From Bacteroidota bacterium (GTDB lineage: Bacteria > Bacteroidota > Bacteroidia > Bacteroidales > Prolixibacteraceae): DNA of 14,275 nt. This document shows positions 1 through 14,275 of this stretch, in pieces. Position numbers and translations under genes: made by a program. Under the pieces are notes generated by a model. That model was not told the origin of the DNA, searched no databases, and saw nothing but the letters and a program-made list of their open reading frames with translations. The first letter of the stretch is position 1. Each line of letters begins with the position of its first letter. The stretch covers positions 1 through 14,275 of the forward strand of contig JAUYEQ010000168.1 of assembly GCA_030691295.1 (NCBI GenBank), in the 5' to 3' direction.

Positions 1-514
1 GGGTTCGGCAACCTATCTGGTAACCAGTGGCGGTGTGCCGGGCACTTCGAGTGGAACTTCCTTTTCATCGCCGGTTATGGCCGGAATGGGCGCATGTTTG
101 TTGCAGGCAAATCCATGGGCAAACGTCAAACAGGTTAAAATGGCCATCGAACAAAGCGCTCATCAATACAGCAAACCAGATTCGCTGCTTGGTTACGGAA
201 TTCCTGATTTTGAAAAAGCTGATAAATACCTGAAAGTGAATTTCGCGAACGATTTAAAAGCTCAAAGTGGCTGGACAATTTCACCAAACCCGTTTTTCGA
301 TTATATATTTCTCAGGAATTTGAATCCGGAAAGAGTCGAAAATTGCCGTATCACCATTTATTCCATGCAAGGGTTAAATATATGGGAGTCAACATTTGCA
401 GCCACCGAAACCATATTGTTGAAGAATCTTGGAAATTTGCCTAAAGGTTTTTTGATCATGAACATTCAGTCAGGCGAAAAAAAACAACAATTTAAACTGA
501 TAAAAACAGAATAG
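1..514 (+). CDS. Subtilisin-like (S8) serine protease with T9SS sorting domain, C-terminal fragment
   Basis: The frame is open from base 2, so the gene begins upstream of the window and about 170 codons are visible. The first segment holds GTSFSSP, the signature around the catalytic serine of subtilases (family S8); that serine is the codon at 59-61. The Asp and His of the triad lie outside. About 45 residues later the fold ends (GYGIPDFEKA, typical of the last S8 helix). The final ~80 residues look like a type A T9SS sorting domain: an SPNPF motif, beta strands, a YSMQG strand and a short basic tail, IKTE. Known for the family: such domains carry proteins through the outer membrane by T9SS and are then removed. 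Inference: a secreted or surface-anchored protease. Substrate unknown. The stop codon overlaps the first unit of a tandem repeat. The fragment is sound; the N-terminal architecture cannot be judged. Confidence 0.9.
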   Translation, partial: GSATYLVTSGGVPGTSSGTSFSSPVMAGMGACLLQANPWANVKQVKMAIEQSAHQYSKPDSLLGYGIPDFEKADKYLKVNFANDLKAQSGWTISPNPFFDYIFLRNLNPERVENCRITIYSMQGLNIWESTFAATETILLKNLGNLPKGFLIMNIQSGEKKQQFKLIKTE

Positions 515-539
515 TGATCAGTGTTCAGAAGCAGTGTTC
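513..539 (+). repeat. AGTGTTC-type tandem repeat at the protease stop codon
   Basis: Four units of 7, 7, 6 and 7 nt at 513-519, 520-526, 527-532 and 533-539; units 2 and 4 are both AGTGTTC. The first unit starts inside the TAG stop. The same layout recurs after three other genes in this window (2415-2452, 2614-2644, 7571-7601). Confidence 0.75.
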
Positions 540-544
540 GGAAC

Positions 545-586
545 TGGAAACTTGAACCTGAAACTTTGAATTTGAAACTTGAAACT
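545..586 (+). repeat. TGAAACT heptamer repeat upstream of xseA
   Basis: Degenerate units led by a TGAAACT consensus. Clean heptamers lie at 559-565, 566-572, 573-579 and 580-586, three of them exactly TGAAACT. The array ends 6 nt before the xseA start codon. A second copy of this family precedes xseB at 2168-2202. Confidence 0.7.
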
Positions 587-592
587 TTTTAA

Positions 593-2044
593 ATGAACGA
601 TCAGCAACTTTCTCTATTCGAATTACAACGTCAGGTAAAAGGCAGTCTGGACGACACTTTTTCACTTCCTGTTTGGGTGAAAGCTGAAATCAGTGAAATG
701 ACCGTGAACCGAAGCGGACATTGTTACCTCGACCTGATTGAAACTGAACAGGGAACCGACACAGTGATTGCACGTTGTCGCGCTACCATCTGGTCGTACA
801 CTTTCAGGATGCTTAAACCTTACTTTGAAACTACTTCAGGACAAGCTTTTACGGAAGGGCTGAAAGTACTCTTGCACGCCAAAGTTGAATACCACGAAGT
901 ATATGGTTTCAGTCTGAACATCCGCGATATTGATCCGGTTTATACATTGGGCGATATGGCCCGGCAACGCCGCGAAATCATCCGTCGATTAGAAGAAGAC
1001 GGAGTCCTTGAAATGAACAAGGAACTTGAATTGCCTTTGGTTCCTCAGCGTATCGCTATCATCTCCTCTCCCACTGCCGCAGGATTGCAGGATTTCGTGG
1101 ACCAATTGCACAATAATCCGCACAAATTTGTTTTTTACACTAAACTGTTTCCGGCAGTGATGCAGGGAAATGAAGCTCCCGGCAGCATCACCAAAGCACT
1201 TGAGCAGATTTTCGAATACGAGGATTTGTTTGATACCGTGGTGATTATTCGTGGCGGCGGGGCGCAAATTGATCTTGCTTGTTTCGATAACTACGATCTC
1301 GCTTTCAATGTGGCACAGTTTCCGCTTCCGGTAATTACCGGAATTGGGCACGACAAAGACGACACAGTGATTGACCTGGTGGCGCATACCCGCATGAAAA
1401 CGCCCACCGCTGTTGCCGAGTTCCTGATTACGGGAGCATTGCAGTTTTCGCAGCAACTGAACGAATTGGAGAAACACTTTACGGAACTGGTGAACGATCA
1501 GCTCGAAGAAAATAAAAATAGGCTGAACGATACAGCCGATCAGTTAAATGATATGGTAAATCAGATGATTGTTGCCCAGCAAAACCGGTTAAACATTGCC
1601 GGGATTCAACTTAAAAACCGTTCAGCAGCTTTCCTGAAAAACCAATATACTGATCTGAAACAGTTAACTACCAACACGAAAAACCTGACCAGCCGATTTG
1701 TCACCCGCCAGAACCATCAGCTGGAACAATCAGGAAATAAAATGAATTATATTTTCAAAGGGCAGATTTTGAAAAGCAAAAACCTTCTGAAACAATTTCA
1801 GGATATAATTAAAATCAGAACGTTTGAAACAATCCGAACTGAAAAGAAAAATCTAAATTTGATTCAGGAAAAACTTCGGTTGGTCGATCCGCAAAATATC
1901 CTGAAACGTGGATATTCACTGACAATGCTGAAAGGAAAAATTCTAAAATCGGTACAATTGGTTAAGGAAGGCGATCTGCTCGAAACAAGACTGAGCGATG
2001 GGACTTTGGAAAGTACAGTGAAAAGAATATCCAATAGTCAATAA
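593..2044 (+). CDS. xseA: Exodeoxyribonuclease VII large subunit
   Basis: Catalytic subunit of exonuclease VII, which with several XseB copies degrades single-stranded DNA from both ends into short oligonucleotides in the cytoplasm. The 483 residues follow the family order. An N-terminal OB-fold (about residues 10-117, including VWVKAEISE) binds ssDNA. The nuclease domain carries IISSPTAAGLQDF (157-169), RGGG (220-223), GIGHDKD (250-256) and KTPTAVAEF (269-277). A long charged, Asn/Gln-rich helical region (about 285-430) should be the coiled stalk that holds XseB. A C-terminal strand domain follows. The ATG at 593 is the natural start because the OB-fold begins at once; no clear Shine-Dalgarno is present, and a heptamer repeat fills the leader. 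The last six codons (RISNSQ) and the stop lie inside another heptamer repeat, so the extreme C-terminus may be recent. xseB follows 166 nt later on the same strand. Confidence 0.97.
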   Translation: MNDQQLSLFELQRQVKGSLDDTFSLPVWVKAEISEMTVNRSGHCYLDLIETEQGTDTVIARCRATIWSYTFRMLKPYFETTSGQAFTEGLKVLLHAKVEYHEVYGFSLNIRDIDPVYTLGDMARQRREIIRRLEEDGVLEMNKELELPLVPQRIAIISSPTAAGLQDFVDQLHNNPHKFVFYTKLFPAVMQGNEAPGSITKALEQIFEYEDLFDTVVIIRGGGAQIDLACFDNYDLAFNVAQFPLPVITGIGHDKDDTVIDLVAHTRMKTPTAVAEFLITGALQFSQQLNELEKHFTELVNDQLEENKNRLNDTADQLNDMVNQMIVAQQNRLNIAGIQLKNRSAAFLKNQYTDLKQLTTNTKNLTSRFVTRQNHQLEQSGNKMNYIFKGQILKSKNLLKQFQDIIKIRTFETIRTEKKNLNLIQEKLRLVDPQNILKRGYSLTMLKGKILKSVQLVKEGDLLETRLSDGTLESTVKRISNSQ

Positions 2045-2073
2045 TGAATATCGAATATCCAAATAAGAATGAA
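2025..2073 (+). repeat. GAATATC heptamer repeat overlapping the end of xseA
   Basis: Seven consecutive 7-nt units from 2025: GAATATC at 2025-2031, 2046-2052 and 2053-2059, with related units between and after (CAATAGT, CAATAAT, CAAATAA, GAATGAA). The xseA stop codon (2042-2044) falls inside the third unit, so the array is partly coding. Confidence 0.65.
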
Positions 2074-2131
2074 GTAAAATCAGACCAAAATAGTTGGTTT
2101 TAATGACTTTAACTTATTGAAATATTGAGGG

Positions 2132-2152
2132 ATGCTGAAACAAGTTCAGCAT
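2132..2152. repeat. Palindromic REP-like element (ATGCTGAA / TTCAGCAT)
   Basis: Perfect 8-bp inverted repeat: ATGCTGAA (2132-2139), 5-nt loop, TTCAGCAT (2145-2152), followed by GACG. Read on the minus strand the element translates as HAELVSAS, a peptide string I recognise from spurious small-protein predictions across Bacteroidota, which marks a dispersed intergenic palindrome. It lies in the xseA-xseB gap. Confidence 0.7.
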
Positions 2153-2167
2153 GACGCCCAATCGAAG

Positions 2168-2202
2168 CGAAACTTGAAACATGGAACTTGAAACTTTGAA
2201 CT
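2168..2202 (+). repeat. TGAAACT heptamer repeat upstream of xseB
   Basis: Five uninterrupted heptamers: CGAAACT, TGAAACA, TGGAACT, TGAAACT and TTGAACT, beginning at 2168, 2175, 2182, 2189 and 2196. The array ends 8 nt before the xseB start codon. Same family as 545-586. Confidence 0.75.
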
Positions 2203-2210
2203 AAATTAAT

Positions 2211-2411
2211 ATGGCAACGAAAAAAGTAACTTACAAAGAAGCGATTACAGAAATTGAAGAAATTCTGGAAAAGATTGAAAATGAAGAACTGGATGTGGAT
2301 GAACTTTCGGAACAGGTAACCCGTGTTTCGGCGTTGATCACCATCTGCAAAGACAAACTGCACAAAACGGAAGCAGAAGTGGAGAAGATTTTGAAAGACA
2401 TGAACCAGTAA
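2211..2411 (+). CDS. xseB: Exodeoxyribonuclease VII small subunit
   Basis: A 66-residue protein, the usual length for XseB. It is almost wholly helical and acidic: a first helix around TYKEAITEIEEILEKIEN, a turn with the family-typical ELDVDELSEQV, then a second helix ending EVEKILKDMNQ. This two-helix hairpin packs along the XseA stalk; several copies per XseA are needed for exonuclease VII activity. The ATG at 2211 gives the complete first helix and has no obvious Shine-Dalgarno. It is co-directional with xseA, but the 166-nt gap is full of repeats and contains a palindrome, so whether both are cotranscribed is uncertain. An AGTGTTC-type repeat starts 3 nt after the stop. Confidence 0.95.
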   Translation: MATKKVTYKEAITEIEEILEKIENEELDVDELSEQVTRVSALITICKDKLHKTEAEVEKILKDMNQ

Positions 2412-2414
2412 AGC

Positions 2415-2452
2415 AGTTGGAAGTGTTCAGTCACAGTTTGCAGTGTCCAGAA
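2415..2452 (+). repeat. AGTGTTC-type tandem repeat after xseB
   Basis: Units at 2415-2421 (AGTTGGA), 2422-2428 (AGTGTTC), 2429-2434 (AGTCAC, 6 nt), 2435-2441 (AGTTTGC) and 2442-2448 (AGTGTCC), then AGAA. It begins 3 nt after the stop and is in the sense direction of xseB. The 6-nt third unit matches the other family members. Confidence 0.7.
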
Positions 2453-2482
2453 GAAACCAAACGGGAATTTTTCGAATCATTC

Positions 2483-2540
2483 TAAAAAAAACGGCAAAGA
2501 ATATCGCAATTATTTGGACAAAAGCGATATCCTTTGCCGT
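2483..2540 (-). terminator. Rho-independent terminator of the TonB-dependent receptor
   Basis: A 17-nt arm at 2491-2507 (ACGGCAAAGAATATCGC) is complementary to 2524-2540 with one mismatch; the loop is 16 nt. On the minus strand the hairpin is followed at once by a run of seven T (2490-2484), the classic layout. On the plus strand no T-run follows, so it serves the receptor gene, whose stop is about 110 nt upstream. Confidence 0.85.
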
Positions 2541-2557
2541 CTGGCTTCAGCCGACGG
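2537..2557 (-). other. Second hairpin overlapping the terminator arm
   Basis: CCGTC (2537-2541) pairs with GACGG (2553-2557) and GGC (2543-2545) pairs with GCC (2550-2552), with T2542 bulged and a 4-nt loop (TTCA on the plus strand). It shares 2537-2540 with the outer end of the terminator stem, so the two full stems exclude each other. In the minus-strand transcript it forms first. Confidence 0.5.
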
Positions 2558-2602
2558 ACGAGAGAATTCTTTAGTTACAGAATTTCGGTTCAAGTAACAA
2601 AA

Positions 2603-2644
2603 TTCAGAATGTATTCTGAAAACTGAGACTGAACACTGATCACT
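2603..2644 (-). repeat. AGTGTTC-type tandem repeat after the receptor gene, with adjoining palindrome
   Basis: Read on the minus strand from 2644: units AGTGATC, AGTGTTC, AGTCTC (6 nt) and a fourth heptamer, then AGAA, ending at 2614. It starts 6 nt after the stop. By direct alignment 28 of 31 positions match 7571-7601. Its tail overlaps a perfect dyad, TTCAGAAT (2603-2610) and ATTCTGAA (2613-2620), separated by GT. Confidence 0.75.
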
Positions 2645-2650
2645 TTTGCC

Positions 2651-5095
2651 TTAGAACTTGATATCAATCCCAGCCAGAAAATGCATTCCTGCCTGCGGAA
2701 AATATCCGTCCATAGCAAAACGCTCGCCGCCCAAAACATAGGAATAAACCCAGGCGTTGTTTTCATATTCGGTGTCGAACAGGTTGTTCACCATAAAATG
2801 CAGGTTCAGCTCTTTGGCGAATTTTTGGGATACCCGATAAGTCATTTTTAGATTGTTCAGCAGATAACCATTTAGTTTTCGGTCTTCACTCGCGGTATTG
2901 TCGATGTACTGTTTGCTTACCGAATAAGTTTGCAAACTAACATTCAATCCTTTGGCGGCCATCCAGCTGATTTGACTGTTGGCAATTACTTCAGGAGAAA
3001 AAGCCAGATCAGTAGTTCCCAGCTCGGTTGCAATCTGTCCGCCATTGTCCCAGTCATCCACATAATCGGTAAAATCCTTGATTTTGTTTTTGCTCAAAGT
3101 AACATTTACATCCCATTTTAACTTTTCGGTAAGCTTCATTCCGGCCATCAGTTCCAGTCCGGCGCGGTAACTATTGTCCACATTGGTCATTATCGGCGCA
3201 CCCACATCATTGATTTCGCCAGTCAGGATTAACTGATTTTGGTACAACATGTAATATGCATTCACGCCCAAAGCCAGACGGGAAGTATTGAATTTGTAGC
3301 CAAACTCAAAATCGTTCAGAGTTTCAAAAGTCGGTGCCTTTCCATCAGGATCGGCATCCACATAATTGTCGCGGTTGGGTTCCCTGTTGGCGCGGGCAAA
3401 GTTTACATACATGTTTTGCTGATCGTTCAACTGATAATAAATACCCACTTTCGGATTGAAAAACTCAAAACTGTGCGATTGTTTCAGGTCGCGCAAATCA
3501 TCGTCGGTACCTGTAATTTCGTAATCGATGGTACGGTACTGGAAATCAGCAAACAAGTTCAGGTTTTCAGCCAATTCGTAGTTGTATTTGGCATACACGT
3601 TAAAGTCTTTTTTCAGCCCGGTTCCGCGGTACCACTCGTGATTCATTCCTGAAGTTCCTGCATTTCGTGCCCAGATTACTTTTCCAAAATGATCCCCATC
3701 GTACACATTGTAGCCTCCACCAAAAGTAAATTCATTGGTTTCCAGCTTTCTGTTCACCGAAAATGTGGTTCCGTAGAAATCGTTTGCAAGCCATTTTCGC
3801 CGAATCAAATCCGATTTTTTGATTGTTTCCCCTCCAATTACCGGAGGTGTGATCAGATAATCAGCAAGTTTTCCATTTTCCTTGAATTGTTCGTAATAAC
3901 CATTCCCTGCGGTATAAAAAAGACTTGCATTGAAATGGAAAACCTCATTCAATTTGCGCGAAAACAACAACTGATAATGATCTTGCTGATAATGGTCAAT
4001 CTCATTCTCGTAGGTGTACAAATTATAGGTGCGGCTGTCTGAATTCACCATTTCGTCCACCTGTTTCTGGCTGTATAGCCAATGATCTCCATACCGCTGC
4101 ATCCCCTCAGCATCGTTGTTCAGACGAACCGAAGGCACGCCGTTCCAGGCCTGGTAGGTGTCTTCCAATCCTGAAAAAATATTGACTTTCAGAATCGTAT
4201 TCGGTGTAAAATATCCTCCTGAAAGAAAAAATGATTTCAGGTCAGCCGAAGCGCGGTCGATAAAACCATCGGAACTGATTTTCGACAACCTCGCATCGAA
4301 AGTGAATTTTTCTTTGATGATACCTGAACCCACGCCAACCGAATGTTTCATGGTTCCGAACGAACCGGCGGATGTGCTGTATTCGGCAAATGCATCTTTG
4401 TTGATGGTGGTGGTTTGCAGATTGATGGTGGCTCCGAAAGCCGCAGCACCGTTTGTGGAAGTTCCGACACCGCGCTGTACCTGAATATTATCGGCTGAGG
4501 AGGCAATATCAGGAATATCGACCCACCAGGTTCCGTGCGATTCGGCATCGTTCATCGGAATGCCGTTAACAGTAACGTTAATGCGGTTTAAATCGGTTCC
4601 GCGAATCCTGAAATTGGTATATCCCACGCCAGTTCCGGCATCAGAAGTGGCCACAAATGAAGGTGTTAATCCAAGTAAATAAGGAATATCCTGCCCCATG
4701 TTTTTGTCCTGAATTTCCGACTTCCCGACTGTTGTAAAAGCTACCGGAGTCTTTTCCTTCACACGGGTAGCCGAAACCAGAACTTCTTCCGCCAGAATGT
4801 TGTCATGTTTCATCACGATATCAAAAGTCTGATTACCGCTGATTTTCACTTCTGCAGTTTGTTTTTCATACCCAATGTAAGAGAATGTCAAATTGTAAGT
4901 TCCGGCCTTCAGGTTCTTAAACAGGTAAGCACCGTTTACATCGGTAGTTGTACCGCTAAAACTGTTTGAAATCGCCAGGTTGGCACCAATAAGTCGCTCA
5001 CCTGTTTCGTTTTTTACAGTTCCTTTCAGGGTGAATTGGGCCATTGCCAAAAACACCGCACATTGCAAAAGCAATGTCAAATAAATCCGTTTCAT
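2651..5095 (-). CDS. TPP-riboswitch-controlled TonB-dependent outer-membrane receptor, probable thiamine-compound transporter
   Basis: An 814-residue outer-membrane receptor, expected to import its ligand using TonB-ExbBD energy. Residues 1-20 are a signal peptide ending AMAQ. Residues ~21-98 form a carboxypeptidase-regulatory-like domain common in Bacteroidota receptors (GTVKNETGERLIGANLAI). A TonB-box-like EEVLVSAT lies at 103-110. The plug spans about 115-229 (NFRIRGTDLNRINVTVNGIP, then IQVQRGVGTSTNGAAAFGA). The rest is beta-barrel, ending in the aromatic residue F. The ligand is inferred from regulation: a TPP riboswitch occupies the leader. THI-element-controlled receptors of this kind are known in Bacteroidota and usually sit with pnuT and a thiamine pyrophosphokinase; neither is visible here. 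Promoter (5258-5288) and terminator (2483-2540) flank a single gene. The ATG at 5095 gives the complete signal peptide. Receptor: very sure. Substrate: fairly sure. Confidence 0.93.
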   Translation of the reverse strand: MKRIYLTLLLQCAVFLAMAQFTLKGTVKNETGERLIGANLAISNSFSGTTTDVNGAYLFKNLKAGTYNLTFSYIGYEKQTAEVKISGNQTFDIVMKHDNILAEEVLVSATRVKEKTPVAFTTVGKSEIQDKNMGQDIPYLLGLTPSFVATSDAGTGVGYTNFRIRGTDLNRINVTVNGIPMNDAESHGTWWVDIPDIASSADNIQVQRGVGTSTNGAAAFGATINLQTTTINKDAFAEYSTSAGSFGTMKHSVGVGSGIIKEKFTFDARLSKISSDGFIDRASADLKSFFLSGGYFTPNTILKVNIFSGLEDTYQAWNGVPSVRLNNDAEGMQRYGDHWLYSQKQVDEMVNSDSRTYNLYTYENEIDHYQQDHYQLLFSRKLNEVFHFNASLFYTAGNGYYEQFKENGKLADYLITPPVIGGETIKKSDLIRRKWLANDFYGTTFSVNRKLETNEFTFGGGYNVYDGDHFGKVIWARNAGTSGMNHEWYRGTGLKKDFNVYAKYNYELAENLNLFADFQYRTIDYEITGTDDDLRDLKQSHSFEFFNPKVGIYYQLNDQQNMYVNFARANREPNRDNYVDADPDGKAPTFETLNDFEFGYKFNTSRLALGVNAYYMLYQNQLILTGEINDVGAPIMTNVDNSYRAGLELMAGMKLTEKLKWDVNVTLSKNKIKDFTDYVDDWDNGGQIATELGTTDLAFSPEVIANSQISWMAAKGLNVSLQTYSVSKQYIDNTASEDRKLNGYLLNNLKMTYRVSQKFAKELNLHFMVNNLFDTEYENNAWVYSYVLGGERFAMDGYFPQAGMHFLAGIDIKF

Positions 5096-5109
5096 TGTTG
5101 TCTTTTAAA

Positions 5110-5141
5110 TGGTTAATAAATAACCAATGAGGCAAGTTATT
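5110..5141 (-). promoter_or_regulatory. Two alternative leader hairpins, possible riboswitch expression platform
   Basis: Between aptamer and start codon, TGGTTA (5126-5121 on the minus strand) pairs perfectly with TAACCA (5115-5110) around a 5-nt loop. An upstream AATAAC (5141-5136) can instead pair with GTTATT (5124-5119). Both helices need 5121-5124, so they compete. The proximal hairpin ends 14 nt before the ATG and has no following T-run, which points to control of translation, not termination. Pairing is seen; switching is inference. Confidence 0.45.
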
Positions 5142-5147
5142 CCCTTT

Positions 5148-5243
5148 CGCCATCCCTTCGCCGGCATTATCCGTATCAGGTTCGGTGGGTGTGATCTCAG
5201 CCTTTTATTACCCCGAATTTAATCGGGCAGGCACCCCATTGCG
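5148..5243 (-). promoter_or_regulatory. TPP (THI-box) riboswitch aptamer
   Basis: The minus strand carries the conserved thiamine pyrophosphate aptamer blocks in order: GGGGTGCC (5237-5230), GGCTGAGA, ACCC, GAACCTGAT, GGATAATGCC, GCGAAGGGA (5161-5153). P1 can form between 5243-5238 and 5153-5148 with one mismatch. The variable P3 side carries an extra stem, CCCGA/TCGGG, with a 6-nt loop. Known: TPP binding to this class lowers expression of thiamine synthesis and uptake genes. It lies 52 nt upstream of the receptor start. Confidence 0.97.
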
Positions 5244-5257
5244 TAAATTGATGGGTG

Positions 5258-5288
5258 CAAAAATAGGTTTTTAAACATACGAAACAAA
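5258..5288 (-). promoter_or_regulatory. Bacteroidota-type promoter for the riboswitch-receptor transcript
   Basis: On the minus strand TTTG (5288-5285) and TATTTTTG (5265-5258) match the -33 TTTG and -7 TAnnTTTG consensus exactly, with a 19-nt spacer. The predicted transcript start, near 5254, falls about ten bases before the aptamer P1 stem, as expected for a riboswitch leader. A second TAnnTTTG match, 5292-5285, lacks a well-placed -33 element. Confidence 0.7.
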
Positions 5289-5541
5289 TATATCCAAAAA
5301 AATAAGTGTTCCCGGTCCTTTTCTATTTTCGGATTTTGAATTCAAGAAACAATCAAAAACAAACATGCTCTATTTTCGGAAAAATTGTCATTTAAACATT
5401 TCACGACTCAGAAATATTGACAGCAAAAATGACTTTATGACATTATCAATCAAATAGATATGCATTGGCATCAGGTTTGAAATGATTCCGTCGAAAACAA
5501 ATAAAAACAAATGTATTAATTAAAAAATGGAGGATTAAATT
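5289..5541. other. Intergenic region upstream of hsp20
   Basis: The divergent gap between receptor and hsp20 totals 446 nt; riboswitch and promoter fill the left part. In this right part I see a 12-bp direct repeat, TCTATTTTCGGA, at 5322-5333 and 5369-5380, and AT-rich sequence with no coding frame. No full Bacteroidota promoter for hsp20 is found. CAGGTTTG (one mismatch to TAnnTTTG) is near 5475 but lacks a -33 box. TTGACA (5417-5422) with CATTAT 18 nt later resembles a sigma-70 promoter but is not the type expected here. Confidence 0.5.
5529..5533 (+). promoter_or_regulatory. Strong Shine-Dalgarno of hsp20
   Basis: GGAGG lies 8 nt before the ATG at 5542. Most other genes in the window lack such a motif, and Bacteroidota usually depend little on it. 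It fixes the start codon and suggests efficient translation. Confidence 0.7.
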
Positions 5542-5976
5542 ATGTTACCAGTATTTAAAACCAGAAGCTTGCCGGGTTTATTTGATGAATTTTTAAGTGG
5601 AAATTTGATTCCGAATTTTGTTGAAGAAGGTGGATGGAAATCGACACCGGCTGTAAATATTTACGAGAGCAACGAAAAATTCGCGATTGAAATTGCAGCT
5701 CCCGGCCTGGAAAAAGAAGATTTTAAAATTGATTTAAAAAACGAGATCCTTACTGTATCTTCTGAAAAAAGTAACCAAAAAGAAAGCGAAGGAAACAAAG
5801 GAAAAGTGATTCGTTCAGAATTCAGGTACGCTTCATTCCAGCGTTCTTTCGCATTGCCAAAGGAAGTTGATGTAACCAACATCAAAGCATCCAATAAAAA
5901 TGGTATTTTAACCATCGAACTTCCGAAAAAGGTTGAGTACAAGAATAATTTGTTCCGTCAGATCGAAATTCAATAA
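5542..5976 (+). CDS. Small heat-shock protein, Hsp20/alpha-crystallin family
   Basis: A 144-residue ATP-independent chaperone that binds unfolding proteins in the cytoplasm as large oligomers. The N-terminal arm (1-35, with LPGLFDEFLSG) is typical of bacterial class A/Hsp17-like members. The alpha-crystallin domain spans about 36-129: PAVNIYESNEKFAIEIAAPGLEKEDF at its start and the diagnostic NGILTIELPK (120-129) at its end. The C-terminal tail carries an I-x-I anchor, IEI (141-143), used in oligomer assembly. Length and motif spacing are normal. The start is set by GGAGG 8 nt upstream. It is a single-gene unit closed by a terminator at 6004-6039 and convergent with cdd. Heat or stress induction is expected for the family, but no heat-shock promoter or CIRCE-like repeat is visible. 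Confidence 0.95.
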   Translation: MLPVFKTRSLPGLFDEFLSGNLIPNFVEEGGWKSTPAVNIYESNEKFAIEIAAPGLEKEDFKIDLKNEILTVSSEKSNQKESEGNKGKVIRSEFRYASFQRSFALPKEVDVTNIKASNKNGILTIELPKKVEYKNNLFRQIEIQ

Positions 5977-6003
5977 GCGCTAATTTTATATTGTGCTTTT
6001 GTC

Positions 6004-6039
6004 AAGGGGATTGTGCTTTCGGGTACAGTCCCTTTTTTT
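6004..6039 (+). terminator. Rho-independent terminator of hsp20
   Basis: AAGGG (6004-6008) pairs with CCCTT (6030-6034 region), and after one bulged G the stem continues through ATTGTGC against GTACAGT with two G-T pairs around a 6-nt loop. Seven T follow (6033-6039). It overlaps the stop codon of convergent cdd. On the minus strand no T-run follows, so it acts for hsp20. Confidence 0.8.
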
Positions 6040-6517
6040 ATAGTGCTTTCTTAGAAAAACTTAAAGGCAATAAACTCTCCACACCCTGTAAAACCAGTAT
6101 TGAATCCTGTCCGTCGAGAATAATACGGATGGGAGTTTCAAATCGCACTTCCGTTTCAGCCAAAGCTTGCCGGCAGGCACCGCAGGGTTTTACCGATTCA
6201 TTTACTAAAATACCGCTTTTAGCTGCCGAAACTGCAATTGCTTTTACTCCTGCATCAGGAAAATTGGCATTGGCATAAAACAAAGCGACCCTTTCTGCGC
6301 ATAATCCTGAAGGATATGCCGAGTTTTCCTGGTTATTTCCGGTAACAATTAAACCGCTGTCCAACAAAACGGCTGCTCCAACATGAAATCCTGAGTACGG
6401 AGCATAAGCCAGGGCAGTAATTCTTCTGGCTTCATTCAACAAAAGCTGATCATTTTCAGGCAATTCACCAATGTTTTGGTATTCGTGTACTACAATCGTG
6501 ATTTCCGTCGTTTTCAT
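6038..6517 (-). CDS. cdd: Cytidine deaminase
   Basis: Hydrolyses cytidine and deoxycytidine to uridine and deoxyuridine plus ammonia in pyrimidine salvage; cytoplasmic zinc enzyme. The 159 residues include the substrate-binding GNNQENSAYPSG (60-71, with N62 and E64), then CAER with zinc ligand C73 and proton-shuttle E75, then PCGACRQ with zinc ligands C112 and C115. YAPYSGFHVGAAV (38-50) is also characteristic. Length fits the homotetrameric class, with about 20 extra N-terminal residues common in Bacteroidota. The ATG at 6517 lies only about 15 nt after the predicted transcript start (promoter 6536-6566), and no Shine-Dalgarno is seen. It is divergent from the GH73 gene and convergent with hsp20, whose terminator overlaps its stop. 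Confidence 0.96.
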   Translation of the reverse strand: MKTTEITIVVHEYQNIGELPENDQLLLNEARRITALAYAPYSGFHVGAAVLLDSGLIVTGNNQENSAYPSGLCAERVALFYANANFPDAGVKAIAVSAAKSGILVNESVKPCGACRQALAETEVRFETPIRIILDGQDSILVLQGVESLLPLSFSKKAL

Positions 6518-6535
6518 ATATTAAACAGTTTTGCC

Positions 6536-6566
6536 CAAATGTACGTTAATAGTTCTTATTTGCCAA
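6536..6566 (-). promoter_or_regulatory. Promoter of cdd
   Basis: On the minus strand TTG (6566-6564) and TACATTTG (6543-6536) match the Bacteroidota -33 and -7 elements, separated by 20 nt. The predicted start, near 6533, gives a leader of about 15 nt. The TTG is half of a CAATTG shared with the opposing promoter. Confidence 0.7.
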
Positions 6567-6598
6567 TTGAGTTAGATAACAACATTTTCTTATTTTTG
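6567..6598 (+). promoter_or_regulatory. Promoter of the GH73-LysM gene
   Basis: TTG (6567-6569) and TATTTTTG (6591-6598) match -33 and TAnnTTTG, separated by 21 nt. The predicted start, near 6601, leaves about 13 nt before the ATG at 6615. Its -33 TTG directly abuts that of the cdd promoter. Confidence 0.65.
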
Positions 6599-6614
6599 TA
6601 GCAATCACATTAAA

Positions 6615-7565
6615 ATGGTCATGATTAAAAATACGATTTTATTTACTTTTTTGTTCTTTTCAATTCAGTTGGTTGCACAATCAACGCAACTTACCCGCGA
6701 TGAATACATCCGTAAATTCTATAAATTAGCAATATCGGAAATGAAGCGCAGCGGAATTCCTGCCAGCATAACACTTGCACAGGGCTGTTGGGAATCGGGT
6801 AACGGAAACAGCCGGCTTGCTACCGAAGCAAACAATCATTTCGGAATAAAATGCAAAAGTGAATGGAGAGGCAAAAAAATCTACCACGATGATGATGCCA
6901 GTCAGGAGTGTTTCAGGAAATATGCGAATGCCGAAACTTCATACATTGATCATTCAAATTTTCTGATGAGTGGAAGCCGTTACAGCTTTCTTTTTCAACT
7001 CGACCCCAAAGACTATGTAGGCTGGGCGCACGGACTGAAAAAAGCCGGATACGCCACTGATCCAACTTACGCCCAACGACTAATCAAAATTATTGAGGAA
7101 TATAAGCTTCATGTTTACGACGAATATGTTGATAACCGGCAACTGGCTTCCCTGAAAAATGAAACTGCGCCTGTTAAAATACAACCTTCGACCCTTGGGA
7201 AAATAAATTCGAGGCATAAAATTGAATTGCGGAACGGCTTGCGAACCGTTGTAGTGGAGGAAGGTGATAGTTACCAAAGCATTACCAAGGATTTGGCATT
7301 GAAAGACTGGGAATTACACACTTACAACGATATAGAAAAAGACAGTAAAGTAAGGGTGAACGAAATTCTCTATATAGAAGCAAAATATAAAAAAGGCAAC
7401 AAGGACCACAAACAACATGTTGCCGAAGATGGCGACACGATGCACTACATTGCACAACGATATGCCTTGAGAATGAAACCATTATTGAAGAGAAACCGCA
7501 TGAAAAAGGGTGAAGAACCCATTGCCGGCCAGATTGTTTATCTGCGGAATAAAAGACCGAGGTAG
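6615..7565 (+). CDS. Secreted GH73 glucosaminidase-family peptidoglycan hydrolase with two LysM domains
   Basis: Predicted beta-N-acetylglucosaminidase cutting glycan strands in peptidoglycan, acting in the periplasm or at the surface. Residues 1-22 are a signal peptide (ILFTFLFFSIQLVAQ). The GH73/FlgJ-like domain spans about 27-165: ITLAQGCWESGNGNSRLA contains the catalytic glutamate (E60), NNHFGIKC follows, then FRKYANAETSYIDHSNFL and the conserved W-A-GLKKAGYATDP-Y segment. Two LysM modules follow, about 209-255 (VVEEGDSYQSI) and 267-312 (HVAEDGDTMHYIAQRY), which should bind N-acetylglucosamine chains. The 316-residue length and order are common for Bacteroidota wall hydrolases. A second ATG at 6621 gives an equally good signal peptide, so the start is uncertain by two codons. 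No Shine-Dalgarno; the leader is very short. An AGTGTTC-type repeat begins 5 nt after the stop. Confidence 0.93.
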   Translation: MVMIKNTILFTFLFFSIQLVAQSTQLTRDEYIRKFYKLAISEMKRSGIPASITLAQGCWESGNGNSRLATEANNHFGIKCKSEWRGKKIYHDDDASQECFRKYANAETSYIDHSNFLMSGSRYSFLFQLDPKDYVGWAHGLKKAGYATDPTYAQRLIKIIEEYKLHVYDEYVDNRQLASLKNETAPVKIQPSTLGKINSRHKIELRNGLRTVVVEEGDSYQSITKDLALKDWELHTYNDIEKDSKVRVNEILYIEAKYKKGNKDHKQHVAEDGDTMHYIAQRYALRMKPLLKRNRMKKGEEPIAGQIVYLRNKRPR

Positions 7566-7570
7566 TAATA

Positions 7571-7601
7571 AGTGTTCAGTGTTCAGTCTCAGTTCCCAGA
7601 A
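7571..7601 (+). repeat. AGTGTTC-type tandem repeat after the GH73 gene
   Basis: Units AGTGTTC (7571-7577), AGTGTTC (7578-7584), AGTCTC (7585-7590, 6 nt) and AGTTCCC (7591-7597), then AGAA. It is in the sense direction of the upstream gene and matches 28 of 31 positions of the copy at 2614-2644 on the other strand. Confidence 0.75.
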
Positions 7602-8728: not shown

Positions 8729-11700
8729 TTATTTCTTTATTATTGAGCGAGATTGAATATTTCCTCCAATCTTTAGTTTAACCAGATAAGATCCTGGCAC
8801 AAGCCTCGACAGGTCAACAACGGTCTTTTGTTCGTTCAATTGTTGTTGCATCAACAGGTTTCCTTGAATGGAGTAGACTTCCATCCTCACTGGTTCATCG
8901 GCTATTTCTCCTAAACCGATGGTTAATGGCCCTGTTGTTGGGTTTGGATAGATTTTCAGCGATGATATAAGCCATGAGTTATTTGTGGTGATAACTTGTG
9001 TCATTGTATTAACGGCAAAAGAAACCGAGACCACTGGTGAATTCTCAGATAGCATAACGGGAAGCTTCTCTGACTGTGTAAGGCCAGGCAATTCGATTAC
9101 GATTTCATGTTGGGCAATGGCCAACTTCTCAAATTTATAAAACCCGCTTGCGTTGGTAAAACAAGAAGAAACAGGAGTCGCCCCTCCTTTTTTGTAAAGA
9201 TGCACCAATGCACCAATTACGGGGGTTTCTGTTCCGGTGTGCGATCGAACTATCGATATGCTTTTTGTCCCGGGAAGCTGTTTTTCAAATACAAATCCGG
9301 AAATCTCACCTGTGCCGGAACTTAATGCTTCCAAAGCTATACAATCAATCGTTTTGGAAACGGTGCCTTCATCAGAAACTGTAATGATCTCGGCGTTTGC
9401 CCAGTTTATCACATTTCCGACATAGGTTGGAGTGAAAGCTTGCGCATTGTTCAGGGGGGACACCAAAACAATCCATTCACCTTGCTCAACAACGAACCTG
9501 GAATAATTTTCCTCAACAACCTGTGGAATATCCCTTTCGATAAACGAGCCTCCGTTTTTCTTGTAAAGTTGATAGGAAAGTTCTGCCACCGGAATGACAG
9601 TATTGTTCATTCTTGAAATCAAGGTCAAGCTTGGCGGTACCTGTTTCACCCAAACAATGACTTGAGCGCTTGTTGAGTTTACTTCACCATCGTTGACCAC
9701 CAATGTAAAGGTATAAGGCGTATCCACATTAACTTTTGGCGCGGTAAAGGTTGGCTTTACCGATGTTGCTGAACTGAGGACAATCCCTGCCGGAGCAGTC
9801 CACTGGTAGCTCAGCTGATCACCATCGGGATCACTCGAAAGGCTGCCATCCAATGTTGCGGTTACTCCTTCGTTCACATTCTGTTCTGATCCTGCACTGG
9901 CCATTGGCGCTTGATTTTGGTTCTTAACAGTGACCACCACCTGATCGGCTGGCGAATCAACCGTGCCATCGTTGACTACTAAAGTGAAAGTGTAATTGGT
10001 ATCGGCTGAAACACCGGGTGCGGTAAATGTTGGTTTCTGTACCGAGGTTGAACTCAACGTAATCCCTGCTGGGGCTAACCATTTGTAGGTTAGAGGATCA
10101 CCATCAGGATCACTTGACAAACTTCCATCCAATGTTGTGGGTGTGCCTTCGTTCACATTCTGGTCGGCACCGGCATTGGCTGTTGGCGCTTGATTTTGGT
10201 TCTTAACGGTGACCACCACCTGATCGGCTGGCGAATCAACGGTGCCATCGTTCACTACCAAAGTAAAAACATAATTGGTATTGGTCGTTATCAGAGGTGC
10301 GGTAAATGTTGGTTTCTGTACCGAAGTTGAACTCAAGGTAATCCCTGCCGGAGCTGTCCATTTGTAGATTAGCGGATCACCATCAGGATCGCTCGAAAGG
10401 CTGCCATCCAAAGTGGCGGTTACACCTTCTTCGACATTCTGGTCGGCTCCAGCATTGGCTATAGGAATTTTATTTACATGCTTGACCGTAACAACCACTT
10501 GCTGATAACTTGCATTTACGATTCCATCGCCAACATATAACAAAAAGATCAATTGGGTGTCTTTGGTAACTTCAGGAGCTAAAAATGTTGGTTTAGCCAC
10601 TGTTTCAGAACTGAGCACAACTCCGGCTGGAGCGGTCCATGCATACTGAAGCTCATCGCCATCAGGGTCGTATGACCCCGATCCATCAAGCGTTACCAGA
10701 GCGCCTTCATCAACGGTTTGGCTCACCCCTGAATTTACAACCGGAGTTTTATTGACAAGTTTAACGGTAACGATTACCAGATCTTCCGGAGAATCAACCG
10801 TCCCATCGTTAACTTTCAGAGAAAATATAAATTCAGTGTCCTTCGAGACTTCGGGCACTGTAAATGTGGGCTTGGCCGCTGTTTCAGAACTGAGGGTGAT
10901 GCCGATGGGAGTGGTCCAAAGGTAAGTCAGCGTGTTGCCGTCTGCATCTGAAGACGCAGTTCCATCGAAGGTAACAAAAGCGCCTTCATCTGCCGTTTGG
11001 TCGGAACCTGCATTGGCAACCGGGGGTTGATTTGTGGCAGTGATATGAGCAAAATCTTTCCATTGGCTGGCGACCTTGTAGAGGTTTTCGGAACCTGCCG
11101 GAACAAATAATGTACAATTGGATTTATCAATACCAAAAAATACATCTTTTTTTGAACTTAAATCGACAGGCGTTGGATTATTGGCGTAGATCGAAGCTAA
11201 CCCAGAACAATTATAGAAAGCTTGACTCCCAATCGAGTTTATCGAAGTCGGAAGGGAAATAGAAGTGAGTCCCGTGCAATTCTCAAATACCCAATCCTCC
11301 AAAGTCGTAAGTCCAGAAGGCACATAAATGGAAGTTAAACCGGAACAGTTGTAAAAGGCATCGACTGCAACGGTGGTGACGGTTGCGGGGATTACGAAAT
11401 CTCCGCTGGTGGCAGGTGGGCAATAAATTAATCGGGTTTTATTTTTATCGTACAAAACACCATTCAGGCTTGAATAATTAAGGTTGTTCCCGTCAACCGA
11501 AACATAACCAGTTGCTGCAATAAATGCACCCCGGCCAATTAAAATGGTTGAAGCCGGAATATTAAAATTCAGGATCTCTTTGCACGAATAGAAAGCAAAC
11601 TCATCAATTATCTCGACCGCTTGAGGTAACGAAATGTTTTTCAATTTATAGCACTGATAAAAAGCAAGATTGCCTATAAACTTAACCGATTCGGGTAAAT

Positions 11701-14275
11701 CACAGGTAACTAACGCAGAACATTGCCTAAACGCTCCATAGCCGACCAATACAACATTGGATGGAATTTGTACATCGGTCAGCCTATCGCAATACGCGAA
11801 ACTTAAGTACCCAATTTCATCGATCTGCGAATTTGCCCCAAAAGCAACTTGGGTCAATCCATCACAATTATTAAAAGCACTTCTCCCAATGGTTTTTGCT
11901 GATATTGGAATACTCACTTTCGTCAGGTTCGAACGATTTAGAAAAGCATTTCGTGGAACTTCACTGGCTGGGTAAGTGATATTATCTGACCCAAAAGTAC
12001 CTTCTGTTCCTATATACTCTACAATAGTTACGCCGCTCAAATCCAATTCGGCCAACATGGGCATTAAATCGCGCATAGTTTTAAAATCGCGCGCATCAAT
12101 GGTGCCTGTTAAAGTTAGTTTGAAAATAGAATTTAACTCACTTGTAATTAACAGCGAGGATAATGTTCCAGGATAAATTATATCAAGAATCTTATTGCCA
12201 TCTACAACGGTAATTTTCGAAGTTTTTAACGTCAAGCCCGGAAATTTCTGATTAGTCATCACACAATGATATACACCAGTTTCAGATGGGGTATATTTAC
12301 CTGTTTGATCTGTATTTTGAATTAATTGATCATCTTTATACCAATTAAATGTTGTTGCTATACCATTTATATCTGATTCGGGCGAAAAATCTATCTCGGT
12401 TCCAATATTTACTATAGATTCGGCAAATAATCCATTTACACGTTGAGGGGAATAACTCATCCCATTCAGATTTACGGTGGTAATGGGTAGATTTAATGGT
12501 AATAGTTGTTTTAAAACACTGAAAGGCAAAGAATTTCCTCCAACATGTATGCTTTCAATTTTTGATTGTCCATTTATATTTAAGAAATTAAGCATGTTGT
12601 CCCAACAACCAAGTTGAGTTAAATTAGACAAAGAACTCACATCTAGTGATTGTAAAAGATTAGCGTAGCAAAATAAGTGTTGTAAATTTCTTAACCCCTG
12701 AAGGTTAAGAGTAGTAATTTGATTTCCGCCGCAATACAGGCCTTGTAAATTTTCTAACCCAAATACATTAAGTTCTGATATCTTATTCCAGTAACATTCT
12801 AATCTTTGCAAATAGGTTAAACTTCTGACATCAAGTGAGTTTATTCTTTTATCATTAATCACTAGGCTTGTAACCCTTTTCTGATCTTGAATTGTCTCCC
12901 AAGTTACACCAGCCCATTCTCCAATATTACTCTCATATGCCCATTCATTCTTTAATGGAGAATCTGATGGTGCGTTATCCCTGATTGACTTTAGTGTTTC
13001 CACATCATCAATGTAGTATCCTTTTGTTATTGACTCAATATGCCCGAAATCTTTCCATTGGTTGGCACTTGCGTAAGAAGTTTCAGAGTCAAAAGGAACA
13101 TATAAGGTACAACTGCTTTTATTGAAAGTACTAAAAGCATCTGCCAATAAACTGGGTGGCGTTGGATTATGTGAATAAAAAGAAGTCAATCCATTACAAT
13201 CTGCGAAGGCATTAGATCTAATTAAATAAACAGACTTTGGTAATGAAATAGATGTGAGCTTACTACAACCTTTAAATGCGTTGTTCCCTATTGTTTTAAC
13301 AGTAGTAGGAACAAACAACTCTCCTGTTTTGTAATTTGTACAAAAAATTACATAGTCCTTATACTTATTTAAGAGCATACCTTCAATTGCTGAAAATTTT
13401 GAATTATTGGCATCAACTGAAAAAATTGCCTGGGTATTTAAAAATACATCTTTCCCTAAGGATGTCAAAGATGCAGGAATTGAAACAGAAGTTAAGGAAG
13501 TACAACCGTTAAAAGCATAATCTCCAACAGAAGTTACAGAACCAGGAATTTCTATGGATTCAAGTGCAGTACAACCAACAAAAGGTGACATGCCAATAGT
13601 TATTATCGAAGCCGGTAGTTCAAAATTTACGGTTTTCAAACTCACACAGTTCTGAAAGGTAAAGTTACCAACAGACGAAACCGTTTTAGGAATGGTCATA
13701 GACTCAAGCCTCGGGCAATCCGAAAAAGCTGATCCTTCAATATTCGTAATTGATACAGGTATTGTTATGCTTTTAATTCCTGAATGCGCAAAAGCAGAAA
13801 CACCTAAATTAGTTATCGAGGAAGGTTGTTCAAATTCAACGGTTTCCAGTCCGTAACACGAATAGAAAGCATTTGCCAAGTTTGTTACTGTTTTTGGTAT
13901 TGTGAAGTTCTTCAACCCTGTACAACCAAAAAACGGATTTCCTGAGATTGTTGTAATTGAAACCGGATCTTCAAATTTAATTTCAGAAAGATTTTCACAA
14001 CTATTAAAAACCGGCCCGTTAATTTCAATTACAGAAGATGGTATTGTGAAACTAACCAAACTGTTACAATTATAAAAAGTCATGCTGTTAAGCGAAGTTA
14101 AAGCTGAAGGTGATTTAATTTTAAAATCAGATAAAGCGGAACAACTTTGAAATGACACGCCAATCTTGTTTAAAGTTCCGGGCAAAAAAATGGCTTTTAA
14201 ATGGTTATTCTCACTAAATGTTCCATCCGGGATTTCATTGCCAATAATAACTGTTTCACTGATATTAATATTTTC
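8729..14275 (-). CDS. Giant T9SS-secreted surface protein with BspA-type LRRs, PKD-like repeats and sorting domain, N-terminus missing
   Basis: The frame runs off the window end, so the start is unseen and 1848 codons are visible. Order by DNA position: first LRR_5/BspA array (14275-13040); a different LRR region with LxxLxCxxN repeats (about 12900-12540); an Ig-like segment (about 12480-12200); a short linker (LTLTGTIDARDFKTMRDLMP) and second LRR_5 array (about 11985-11040); five PKD-like repeats (11032-9638); an unassigned beta region; a carboxypeptidase-regulatory-like domain (about 9320-9050, VIGALVHLYKKGG and GFYKFEKL); a type A T9SS sorting domain (about 8970-8732, IYPNPTTG to SIIKK). 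Known: BspA-type LRRs and PKD repeats mediate adhesion or protein binding on surface proteins. Inference: a T9SS-exported adhesin or scaffold. No catalytic motif is seen. The upstream half is visibly more AT-rich than the PKD part. A terminator follows 40 nt after the stop. Confidence 0.93.
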   Translation of the reverse strand, partial: ENINISETVIIGNEIPDGTFSENNHLKAIFLPGTLNKIGVSFQSCSALSDFKIKSPSALTSLNSMTFYNCNSLVSFTIPSSVIEINGPVFNSCENLSEIKFEDPVSITTISGNPFFGCTGLKNFTIPKTVTNLANAFYSCYGLETVEFEQPSSITNLGVSAFAHSGIKSITIPVSITNIEGSAFSDCPRLESMTIPKTVSSVGNFTFQNCVSLKTVNFELPASIITIGMSPFVGCTALESIEIPGSVTSVGDYAFNGCTSLTSVSIPASLTSLGKDVFLNTQAIFSVDANNSKFSAIEGMLLNKYKDYVIFCTNYKTGELFVPTTVKTIGNNAFKGCSKLTSISLPKSVYLIRSNAFADCNGLTSFYSHNPTPPSLLADAFSTFNKSSCTLYVPFDSETSYASANQWKDFGHIESITKGYYIDDVETLKSIRDNAPSDSPLKNEWAYESNIGEWAGVTWETIQDQKRVTSLVINDKRINSLDVRSLTYLQRLECYWNKISELNVFGLENLQGLYCGGNQITTLNLQGLRNLQHLFCYANLLQSLDVSSLSNLTQLGCWDNMLNFLNINGQSKIESIHVGGNSLPFSVLKQLLPLNLPITTVNLNGMSYSPQRVNGLFAESIVNIGTEIDFSPESDINGIATTFNWYKDDQLIQNTDQTGKYTPSETGVYHCVMTNQKFPGLTLKTSKITVVDGNKILDIIYPGTLSSLLITSELNSIFKLTLTGTIDARDFKTMRDLMPMLAELDLSGVTIVEYIGTEGTFGSDNITYPASEVPRNAFLNRSNLTKVSIPISAKTIGRSAFNNCDGLTQVAFGANSQIDEIGYLSFAYCDRLTDVQIPSNVVLVGYGAFRQCSALVTCDLPESVKFIGNLAFYQCYKLKNISLPQAVEIIDEFAFYSCKEILNFNIPASTILIGRGAFIAATGYVSVDGNNLNYSSLNGVLYDKNKTRLIYCPPATSGDFVIPATVTTVAVDAFYNCSGLTSIYVPSGLTTLEDWVFENCTGLTSISLPTSINSIGSQAFYNCSGLASIYANNPTPVDLSSKKDVFFGIDKSNCTLFVPAGSENLYKVASQWKDFAHITATNQPPVANAGSDQTADEGAFVTFDGTASSDADGNTLTYLWTTPIGITLSSETAAKPTFTVPEVSKDTEFIFSLKVNDGTVDSPEDLVIVTVKLVNKTPVVNSGVSQTVDEGALVTLDGSGSYDPDGDELQYAWTAPAGVVLSSETVAKPTFLAPEVTKDTQLIFLLYVGDGIVNASYQQVVVTVKHVNKIPIANAGADQNVEEGVTATLDGSLSSDPDGDPLIYKWTAPAGITLSSTSVQKPTFTAPLITTNTNYVFTLVVNDGTVDSPADQVVVTVKNQNQAPTANAGADQNVNEGTPTTLDGSLSSDPDGDPLTYKWLAPAGITLSSTSVQKPTFTAPGVSADTNYTFTLVVNDGTVDSPADQVVVTVKNQNQAPMASAGSEQNVNEGVTATLDGSLSSDPDGDQLSYQWTAPAGIVLSSATSVKPTFTAPKVNVDTPYTFTLVVNDGEVNSTSAQVIVWVKQVPPSLTLISRMNNTVIPVAELSYQLYKKNGGSFIERDIPQVVEENYSRFVVEQGEWIVLVSPLNNAQAFTPTYVGNVINWANAEIITVSDEGTVSKTIDCIALEALSSGTGEISGFVFEKQLPGTKSISIVRSHTGTETPVIGALVHLYKKGGATPVSSCFTNASGFYKFEKLAIAQHEIVIELPGLTQSEKLPVMLSENSPVVSVSFAVNTMTQVITTNNSWLISSLKIYPNPTTGPLTIGLGEIADEPVRMEVYSIQGNLLMQQQLNEQKTVVDLSRLVPGSYLVKLKIGGNIQSRSIIKK
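9638..11032 (-). repeat. Five tandem PKD-like repeats of exactly 93 codons
   Basis: Starts at 11032, 10753, 10474, 10195 and 9916, each 279 nt with no insertion or deletion. Each begins N-x-x-P, has EG near residue 16, DPDGD or DADGN near 29-33, a conserved W39, KPTF around 54-57 and VxVTVK or VIVWVK near the end. Repeats 3 and 4 share 78 of 93 residues and long stretches of DNA, so they are the most recent duplicates. Confidence 0.92.
11040..11985 (-). repeat. Second LRR_5 (BspA-type) array
   Basis: Repeats of about 23 residues with the pattern C-x-x-L-x-x-I-x-[IL]P, then a G-x-x-A-F segment (IGRSAFNNCDGLTQV, VGYGAFRQCSALVTC and others). It ends in a cap (NPTPVDL, then CTLFVPAGSENLYKVASQWKDF) that closely resembles the cap of the first array. 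Confidence 0.85.
13040..14275 (-). repeat. First LRR_5 (BspA-type) array, continuing beyond the window
   Basis: About 23-residue repeats with C-x-x-L-x-x-[IV]-x-IP and G-x-x-AF cores (for example IKSITIPVSITNIEGSAFSD). The 30 codons before the first possible start codon (14275-14186) keep the pattern (EIPDGTFSENNHLKAIF), so coding continues outside. It ends in the cap NPTPPSL ... CTLYVPFDSE ... NQWKDFGHI. Confidence 0.88.

Follow-up and report, generated by a model that had tools for sequence, protein, structure and literature searches.

A stretch of 14,275 nucleotides (nt) of contig JAUYEQ010000168.1, from a Bacteroidota bacterium of the family Prolixibacteraceae (assembly GCA_030691295.1, a draft genome of 4.44 Mb made up of 721 contigs), carries the end of a peptidase S8 gene and genes for exonuclease VII subunits, a TonB-dependent receptor, a glucosaminidase, a small heat-shock protein, a cytidine deaminase and a sigma factor. 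We refer to this whole stretch, contig C245 in our numbering, as the window. Behind four of its stop codons stand short arrays built on the 7-nt unit AGTGTTC, which an earlier note had pointed out and whose places, unit phases and adjoining stop codons were confirmed by reading the sequence. Followed through other genomes, such arrays, almost all of them in sense, start at the stop codon; they occupy convergent as well as tandem gaps, some of these within likely operons, and AGTGTTC is one of several heptad families sharing one polarity, with the G-rich strand leading outward from genes.

Arrays and neighboring features of the window

The four arrays are of the AGT type and were read from the sequence, all four also being found by pattern search.

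513..539, plus strand: array of steps 7-7-6-7, AGTGATC-AGTGTTC-AGAAGC-AGTGTTC-G
2415..2452, plus strand: array of steps 7-7-6-7-7, AGTTGGA-AGTGTTC-AGTCAC-AGTTTGC-AGTGTCC-AG
2614..2644, minus strand: array of steps 7-7-6-7
7571..7601, plus strand: array of steps 7-7-6-7

The AG that opens the first array is that of the TAG stop codon (512-514) of the peptidase S8 gene, and its 6-nt unit, AGAAGC, is unlike AGTCnC. Three bases separate the second array from the TAA stop codon (2409-2411) of xseB, whose product is Exonuc_VII_S by domain match. The third begins 6 bases past the stop codon of the TonB-dependent receptor gene (2651-5095, minus strand) and the fourth 5 bases past the TAG stop codon (7563-7565) of the glucosaminidase gene; these two agree at 28 of 31 bases, as had been counted before. 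Pattern searches recover the arrays as C245:513-528, C245:2629-2644 and 7571-7601 with AGTGTTCAGTGTTCAG, and as C245:2427-2443 with the looser TCAGTnnCAGTnnnCAG. When the arrays were folded alone, their z scores were -2.0, 0.15, 0.48 and 0.98; the first value is that of the array at 513, which 7 of 200 shuffles equaled, and the other three fold no better than shuffles. No matching arm stands in the gap behind the array at 7571-7601, and the RNA of this array is predicted to be unstructured.

Three further features were noted in the window, the first two being segments with a 7-nt period (lag 7) and the third taken from the RNA fold of the plus strand.

542..587, plus strand: second heptad family, of ACTTGAA type, directly 5' of the xseA start at 593
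2169..2202, plus strand: ACTTGAA-type heptad array directly 5' of the xseB start at 2211
2409..2650, no strand: convergent gap between xseB and the TonB-dependent receptor gene, whose facing arrays pair

As plus-strand RNA this convergent gap folds at -74.4 kcal/mol (z -6.2 against 200 shuffles), AGTGTTCAGTCACAGTTT pairing with AAACTGAGACTGAACACT around inner hairpins, with partner-arm scores of 12 and 17. At about 2494-2565 lies a hairpin of CGGCAAAGnATATCGC...GCGATATCCTTTGCCG type, and similar sequences occur at further gene ends of the genus. Immediately 5' of the gene for the TonB-dependent receptor lies a thiamine pyrophosphate (TPP) riboswitch (RF00059, 65.4 bits; 5136-5248, minus strand), and for this reason we consider the receptor to be probably a thiamine-related importer. 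The riboswitch alone reaches the Rfam gathering score in the window, and the arrays have no Rfam match at that score. The large open reading frame at 8729-14185 (minus strand) resembles leucine-rich and PKD-like repeats by eye.

Placement, layout and spread of the arrays

A search of the genome that holds the window (the source genome) with AGTGTTCAGTGTTCAG, allowing up to two mismatches, gave 27 matches against none for the reversed pattern, and the looser phase pattern TCAGTnnCAGTnnnCAG gave 35 against none. Counting those of the window, 32 of the 36 distinct copies in source-genome loci come after a stop codon on the same strand, the match starting between -5 and +32 nt from it; two of the others follow a gene on the opposite strand, one lies inside a called coding sequence and one has no upstream gene called. 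Among 114 distinct matches at 113 loci in other genomes, 89 come after a same-strand stop codon, 84 of them within -5 to +46 nt and five at 142-919 nt, while 19 follow an opposite-strand gene, three have no gene called and three fall in called coding regions. The gene caller was home-made and may have miscalled some of these exceptions. The relative G457 was sampled over 800 kb of long contigs, which were chosen from the match list and hence not blind to the motif; there AGTGnTCAGT matched 21 times: 13 matches were tandem-sense, 3 convergent, 1 tandem-antisense, none divergent and 4 coding, where the contexts on offer numbered 323 tandem-sense, 323 tandem-antisense, 150 divergent and 108 convergent.

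Gene ends were also counted with the seed CAGTnnnCAGT alone. It stood near the stop codon at 30 of 1247 gene ends in G457, the source genome, the relative G461 and the window together (reversed seed 2, complementary seed 3), and at 27 of 1237 outside the window, in three genomes of the genus (again 2 and 3). The part sampled blind to the motif, comprising every fourth contig of the source genome and the first twenty contigs of G461, had it at 12 of 590 gene ends (reversed 2, complementary 1). By sample the counts were 6 of 274 for the source genome (2 and 1), 6 of 316 for G461 (0 and 0), 15 of 647 for G457 (0 and 2) and 3 of 10 for the window. The first AGT lay -5 to +6 nt from the stop codon in 24 of the 27 arrays outside the window and in 27 of the 29 genus arrays that include it, and the array sometimes itself forms the stop codon. 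The earlier note had held that fixed position, sense direction and unit phase were not drift, and this stands in the source genome, in G457 and in the gene-end counts; random strand and distance to stop codons, or copies common in coding sequence, which the note had named as the refuting outcome, did not occur in these samples.

The family is built on a CAGT anchor followed by 2-3 free bases, repeated in steps of 7 or 6 nt. Four steps are the most frequent number (11 of the 27 arrays outside the window, 12 of the 29 genus arrays, and 37 of 71 loci selected by the motif), with a range of 2-8 among the 29. The 7-7-6-7 pattern, which had been taken as common to every copy, is frequent but not general: it is found in 5 of the 29 genus arrays, 4 of the 27 outside the window and 34 of the 71 motif-selected loci, and 5 of the 27 have the layout 7-7-6. 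The 23-base core pattern used in wider searches fixes most letters, so conservation was read instead from seed-only columns and from orthologs of the TonB-receptor end. When seven copies at that end were aligned base for base, only the spacer columns, the flank and the last base showed change. These seven were taken from ten ends with an array (L278, L281 and L289 were excluded, their arrays being different, and L286 was cut to its later units), and they were recognized by the presence of the element, which biases the comparison toward conserved anchors.

The pattern CAGTnnTCAGTCnCAGT was present in 22 of 23 genomes of the genus, its reversed control giving one match in one genome. Counting the source genome, the 23-base core was found in 8 of 60 genomes of a family sample and 2 of 395 of a phylum sample, and the looser pattern in 8 of 109 of a phylum sample with one reversed-control match. 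In the collection genome_contigs the core occurs at at least 113 loci; 80 of the 113 records, considered by name, were mostly Prolixibacteraceae, Flavobacterium, Algoriphagus and other Bacteroidota, with one Limnohabitans. The last is a metagenome-assembled genome (L086, JASGCW010000027.1) with the core at 1317-1339 and 2550-2572 and long AGT arrays besides, in which a Bacteroidota core would reflect either binning contamination or transfer. The core had no exact match in viral_contigs, and a phage-borne element was rejected on that count.

AGTGTTC is not the only heptad at these borders. Intergenic segments with a 7-nt period numbered 74 against 11 in a Markov control, and 57 against 6 at lag 14. 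Lags 4-6 were at or below the control, and lags 8 (21 against 3), 9 (13 against 8), 10 (15 against 5), 13 (17 against 9) and 15 (19 against 8) exceeded it but remained far under lag 7. After stop codons the families AGTGTTC, AAGTTTC, GTTACGG and GAAGTCG were met, and before start codons the complements of such units. G exceeded C in 19 and fell below it in 4 of 27 after-stop heptads of the genus (window included), and in 45 and 11 of 58 at motif-selected genome_contigs loci; before start codons the corresponding numbers were 6 and 12 of 21 in the genus and 6 and 27 of 35 at the loci. Heptad-free gaps after stop codons were balanced (G-rich 203 and C-rich 220 of 482 in the genus; 190 and 171 of 397 at the loci), and those before start codons were already C-rich (188 and 326 of 580; 131 and 269 of 439).

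The short tandemly repeated repetitive (STRR) sequences of cyanobacteria are likewise arrays of heptanucleotides situated between genes. REP and BIME elements too are multicopy and intergenic, often close behind stop codons, but a REP is palindromic, bears a tag and has a transposase associated with it. A single AGTGTTC array is no palindrome; three of the four in the window, as noted, fold no better than their shuffles.

The placement rule at gene ends has a published parallel, which the earlier note did not name. Rehm et al. (2015; PMC4692102) described G-rich heptamers of unknown function, GGGAATC in Xanthomonas and GGGGA(C/T)T in Nostoc, that lie in sense close to the stop codon, which some of them overlap, or in antisense upstream of a start codon. 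They are under-represented between divergent genes, and their preference for about four units was linked by those authors to the G-quadruplexes that these heptamers form. The AGTGTTC arrays share with them the 7-nt unit, the approximately four steps and the outward polarity at stop codons, standing in sense just after the stop codon and rarely between divergent genes; they differ in lacking GGG, in a recurrent 6-nt unit and in their occurrence in Bacteroidota. MacGregor (2015; PMC4679880) described another intergenic heptad, the direct repeat TAACTGA, from Beggiatoaceae, Cyanobacteria and some Bacteroidetes. In Beggiatoaceae these repeats are pure heptamers located mainly upstream of start codons, unlike our units AGTGTTC and AGTCnC, with their mixed 7- and 6-nt steps after stop codons. 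One set in Flexibacter litoralis, however, lies directly 3' of a stop codon in reverse orientation (PMC4679880) and thus has the polarity found here, the complement of TAACTGA containing CAGT. Elements of four or five heptanucleotides are also mentioned in a Geobacter genome paper (PMC2700814). Our literature search, which covered few subscription journals, found no description of the AGTGTTC family or of heptad swapping, and a text search for the repeat letters returned no title on bacterial repeats among the matches listed; the earlier statement that no function is described therefore stands as far as this literature goes.

Turnover, folding and the atpD-atpC junction

Orthologous gene ends differ in whether they hold an array. 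At the TonB-receptor end an array was present in 10 of 22 orthologs examined, that of the source genome included, and several of the others carried another hairpin or heptad family at the same place; z was below -2 in 18 of 20 of these gaps, array present or not. At the glucosaminidase end the counter found the element in 2 of 22 orthologs and missed two weaker copies seen by eye (L254, L255). The source genome has an array there that is absent from G412, whose protein is 97% identical. After the glucosaminidase stop codon in L251, L253, L258, L259, L260, L265 and L266, from other species of the genus, a different multicopy hairpin-like family, of CCCCATCCCC or CCCCTTCCCC...AAGGG type, was noted by eye. 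Between the source genome and G461, 16 of 18 comparable gene ends lacked the element in both and 2 had it in both, a comparison that says little since both shared ends lie in one motif-selected locus of the source genome, L048.

Some arrays have a partner arm across the gap. In the source genome this was so for 5 of 11 convergent copies, two of them the window pair (reversed control 0), and in other genomes for 9 of 24 convergent (reversed 1) and 11 of 55 tandem copies (reversed 0). Gap structure was compared over gaps of 45-200 nt, the element-free ones being a random quarter. At motif-selected loci the median z was -1.51 with the element (n=46) and -0.59 without it (n=47) in tandem gaps, and -4.0 (n=32) and -3.4 (n=24) in convergent ones.

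In other genomes the element also occupies short tandem gaps between genes that, from known operons, we expect to be co-transcribed: the ATP synthase beta and epsilon genes (atpD-atpC), purK and purE, aspartokinase/homoserine dehydrogenase and GHMP kinase genes (thrA-thrB by position), prephenate dehydrogenase and DAHP synthase/chorismate mutase, and peptide deformylase and a DUF5606 gene. The suggestion that the arrays mark transcript 3' ends is not supported, as copies lie within the conserved pairs atpD-atpC, thrA-thrB and purK-purE, which are probably co-transcribed.

The atpD-atpC junction was followed in a genus that we took to be Flavobacterium, a Flavobacterium AtpD (L060) matching at 89-100% identity. 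Of 61 genomes sampled evenly across this genus, that of G257, 57 yielded an AtpD; 40 of the 57 gaps were taken, being the first 42 of the score-ranked list minus two near contig ends, and 38 were analyzed after L425 (which contains Ns) and L428 were left out. These come from related genomes and are not 38 independent events. The gap measured 68-95 nt in 34 of the 38. Its mean lag-7 match was 0.624, against 0.245-0.315 at lags 5, 6, 8 and 9, and 35 gaps had a hairpin z below -2, 30 of them below -3 (median -4.9); as a yardstick, element-free tandem gaps of motif-selected loci gave a lag-7 match of 0.372 (against 0.299), and 15 of 47 had z below -2. In the 5' half G exceeded C in 32 gaps and fell below it in 5, and in the 3' half the numbers were 4 and 32. 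By 6-mer overlap the gaps fell into 12 clusters (19, 4, 3, 3, 2 and seven singles), a rough count in that single linkage joins several visibly different heptads in the cluster of 19. In 37 of 38 gaps the 5' arm scored higher against the 3' arm of the same gap (mean 15.5) than, on average, against those of other clusters (7.9). Some of the folds are ladders of paired 4-base anchors, with the three spacer bases making up a 3x3 loop; among the internal loops 20 were 3x3, 4 were 2x2 and 2 were 4x4. At this one junction, position, 7-nt register, approximate length and polarity were kept while the sequence was replaced, which suggests that layout rather than letters is maintained there. Same-register swapping of this kind is not met in the available part of the account of G-rich heptamers (PMC4692102).

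Possible function and origin

We tentatively favor, as the best explanation, that the arrays are a sequence-flexible gene-boundary RNA element in 7-nt register, with a putative function. In the mRNA they would serve as a boundary element, lying in the untranslated part that is exposed once the ribosome leaves the stop codon. Where an array of the same family stands across the gap, the two would form a hairpin, built either as one unbroken stem or as 4-bp rungs separated by 3x3 loops, which would protect the message upstream and insulate it from the start codon that follows; where there is none, the array would be an unpaired tract, either a half element or a protein-binding tract. With both arms present, ladder pairing would explain the CAGTnnn grammar. 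New arrays may arise by duplication in 7-nt register and conversion between gene ends, and not through a coding transposon.

Several observations weigh against this explanation. The AGTGTTC family occupies only about 2% of gene ends (27/1237), and in one relative, G459, the search pattern gave no match. The ladder or hairpin part does not cover the unpaired tandem copies of the genus: none of 18 tandem copies in the source genome has a matching arm (reversed control 0), and genus tandem gaps with the element are unstructured (median z 0.09, 2 of 16 below -2; without it -0.51, n=91). Genus convergent gaps had a median z of -2.55 without the element (26 of 42 below -2) and -1.46 with it (3 of 6), so that within the genus the element is not tied to more structure. 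Gaps at the glucosaminidase end are mostly unstructured as well (3 of 17 below -2). The atpD-atpC junction was selected since motif matches lay there, and one of its 40 gaps, in L428, is merely 11 nt long and has no array. Among the loops of the folds, 1x1 (single-mismatch) loops are more numerous than 3x3 loops (37 against 20), and mismatches in the arms recur at lags 7 and 14 (0.117 and 0.127) only a little more often than at lags 1 and 2 (0.100 and 0.111).

The strongest rival is a purely mutational origin without function, which we regard as possible though not probable. R-loops or strand slippage where untranslated RNA begins would let heptads build up on the G-skewed coding strand and be tolerated outside coding sequence. 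The start of arrays at the stop codon, their G-skewed sense polarity, the lack of any of the 21 G457 matches between divergent genes and the fast turnover at orthologous gene ends all agree with this, and heptad slippage by DNA polymerase has been proposed (PMC4679880, citing Mrazek 2007). It does not predict that the same irregular 7-7-6 sequence recurs in several Bacteroidota genera, that polarity is outward before start codons too, that arms match in 37 of 38 atpD-atpC gaps, or that change in the seven retained TonB-end copies is confined to spacer columns, flank and last base.

That same confinement, with anchors invariant and spacers free, is what a linear site for an RNA-binding protein or Rho would show just after the stop codon, one unit being bound per subunit or domain; the poor folding of three of the four single window copies fits as well, and a repeat-binding regulator has likewise been proposed for TAACTGA repeats (PMC4679880). 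We think such a site doubtful, given the patchy presence (8 of 109 genomes of the phylum sample) and the other families at the same place in relatives.

Similarly doubtful is a mobile mini-repeat, like a MITE (miniature inverted-repeat transposable element) or REP, inserting at stop codons in sense and moved in trans. The 23-base core is common to several Bacteroidota genera, and close relatives differ, as do the source genome and G412 at the glucosaminidase end. The source genome also has eight Y1_Tnp matches (Y1, IS200-like transposase domains; G000:C706, C107, C219, C661 and four other places), possibly RAYT relatives. The core has no match in the viral contig collection, however; no inverted ends, tag, target duplication or clean insertion footprint was noticed by eye, the number of steps varies from 2 to 8 in 29 arrays, and a fixed insert would not give way to unrelated heptad families at a single junction and still keep the register.

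It is very unlikely that the arrays simply serve convergent genes as the arms of ordinary intrinsic terminators working in both directions. The facing copies in convergent gaps, the low z of TonB-end gaps with or without an array, and an A-run before and a T-run after the arms of some copies (by eye) point that way, and convergent copies may qualify as intrinsic terminators. Tandem copies, which outnumber convergent ones in the source genome (18 against 11) and have no partner arm there, lack the stable hairpin of such terminators; the window copy at 7571-7601 does not fold, and only about 3 T occur in the 8 nt past partner arms. The AGTGTTC array is not simply a terminator because copies lie inside likely operons and the tandem copies of the genus are unstructured, and a pure bidirectional terminator was rejected as a full account on these grounds. 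G-quadruplexes cannot be the cause here because neither the AGTGTTC consensus nor the four window copies contain GGG.

A speculative and rather unlikely possibility is that the border is coded by layout: an array of about four steps in 7-nt register, G-rich strand leading outward, in which the letters of both arms are overwritten together while register, length and polarity are kept. If true, this would need an activity that writes or copies heptads in register, such as reverse-transcriptase-like templated addition or register-locked conversion, or else a reader that recognizes spacing instead of sequence.

Heptameric repeats beside bacterial genes are found in several phyla and have no agreed cause, the G-rich ones being discussed in terms of G-quadruplexes. 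The polarity of the G-rich ones at gene ends has been described (PMC4692102). As the quadruplex-incapable AGTGTTC family obeys the same placement rule, a more general cause must be at work. The atpD-atpC junction is a natural experiment, one junction in many species with the same 7-nt architecture and different letters, and makes spacing, structure and mutation directly testable against one another.

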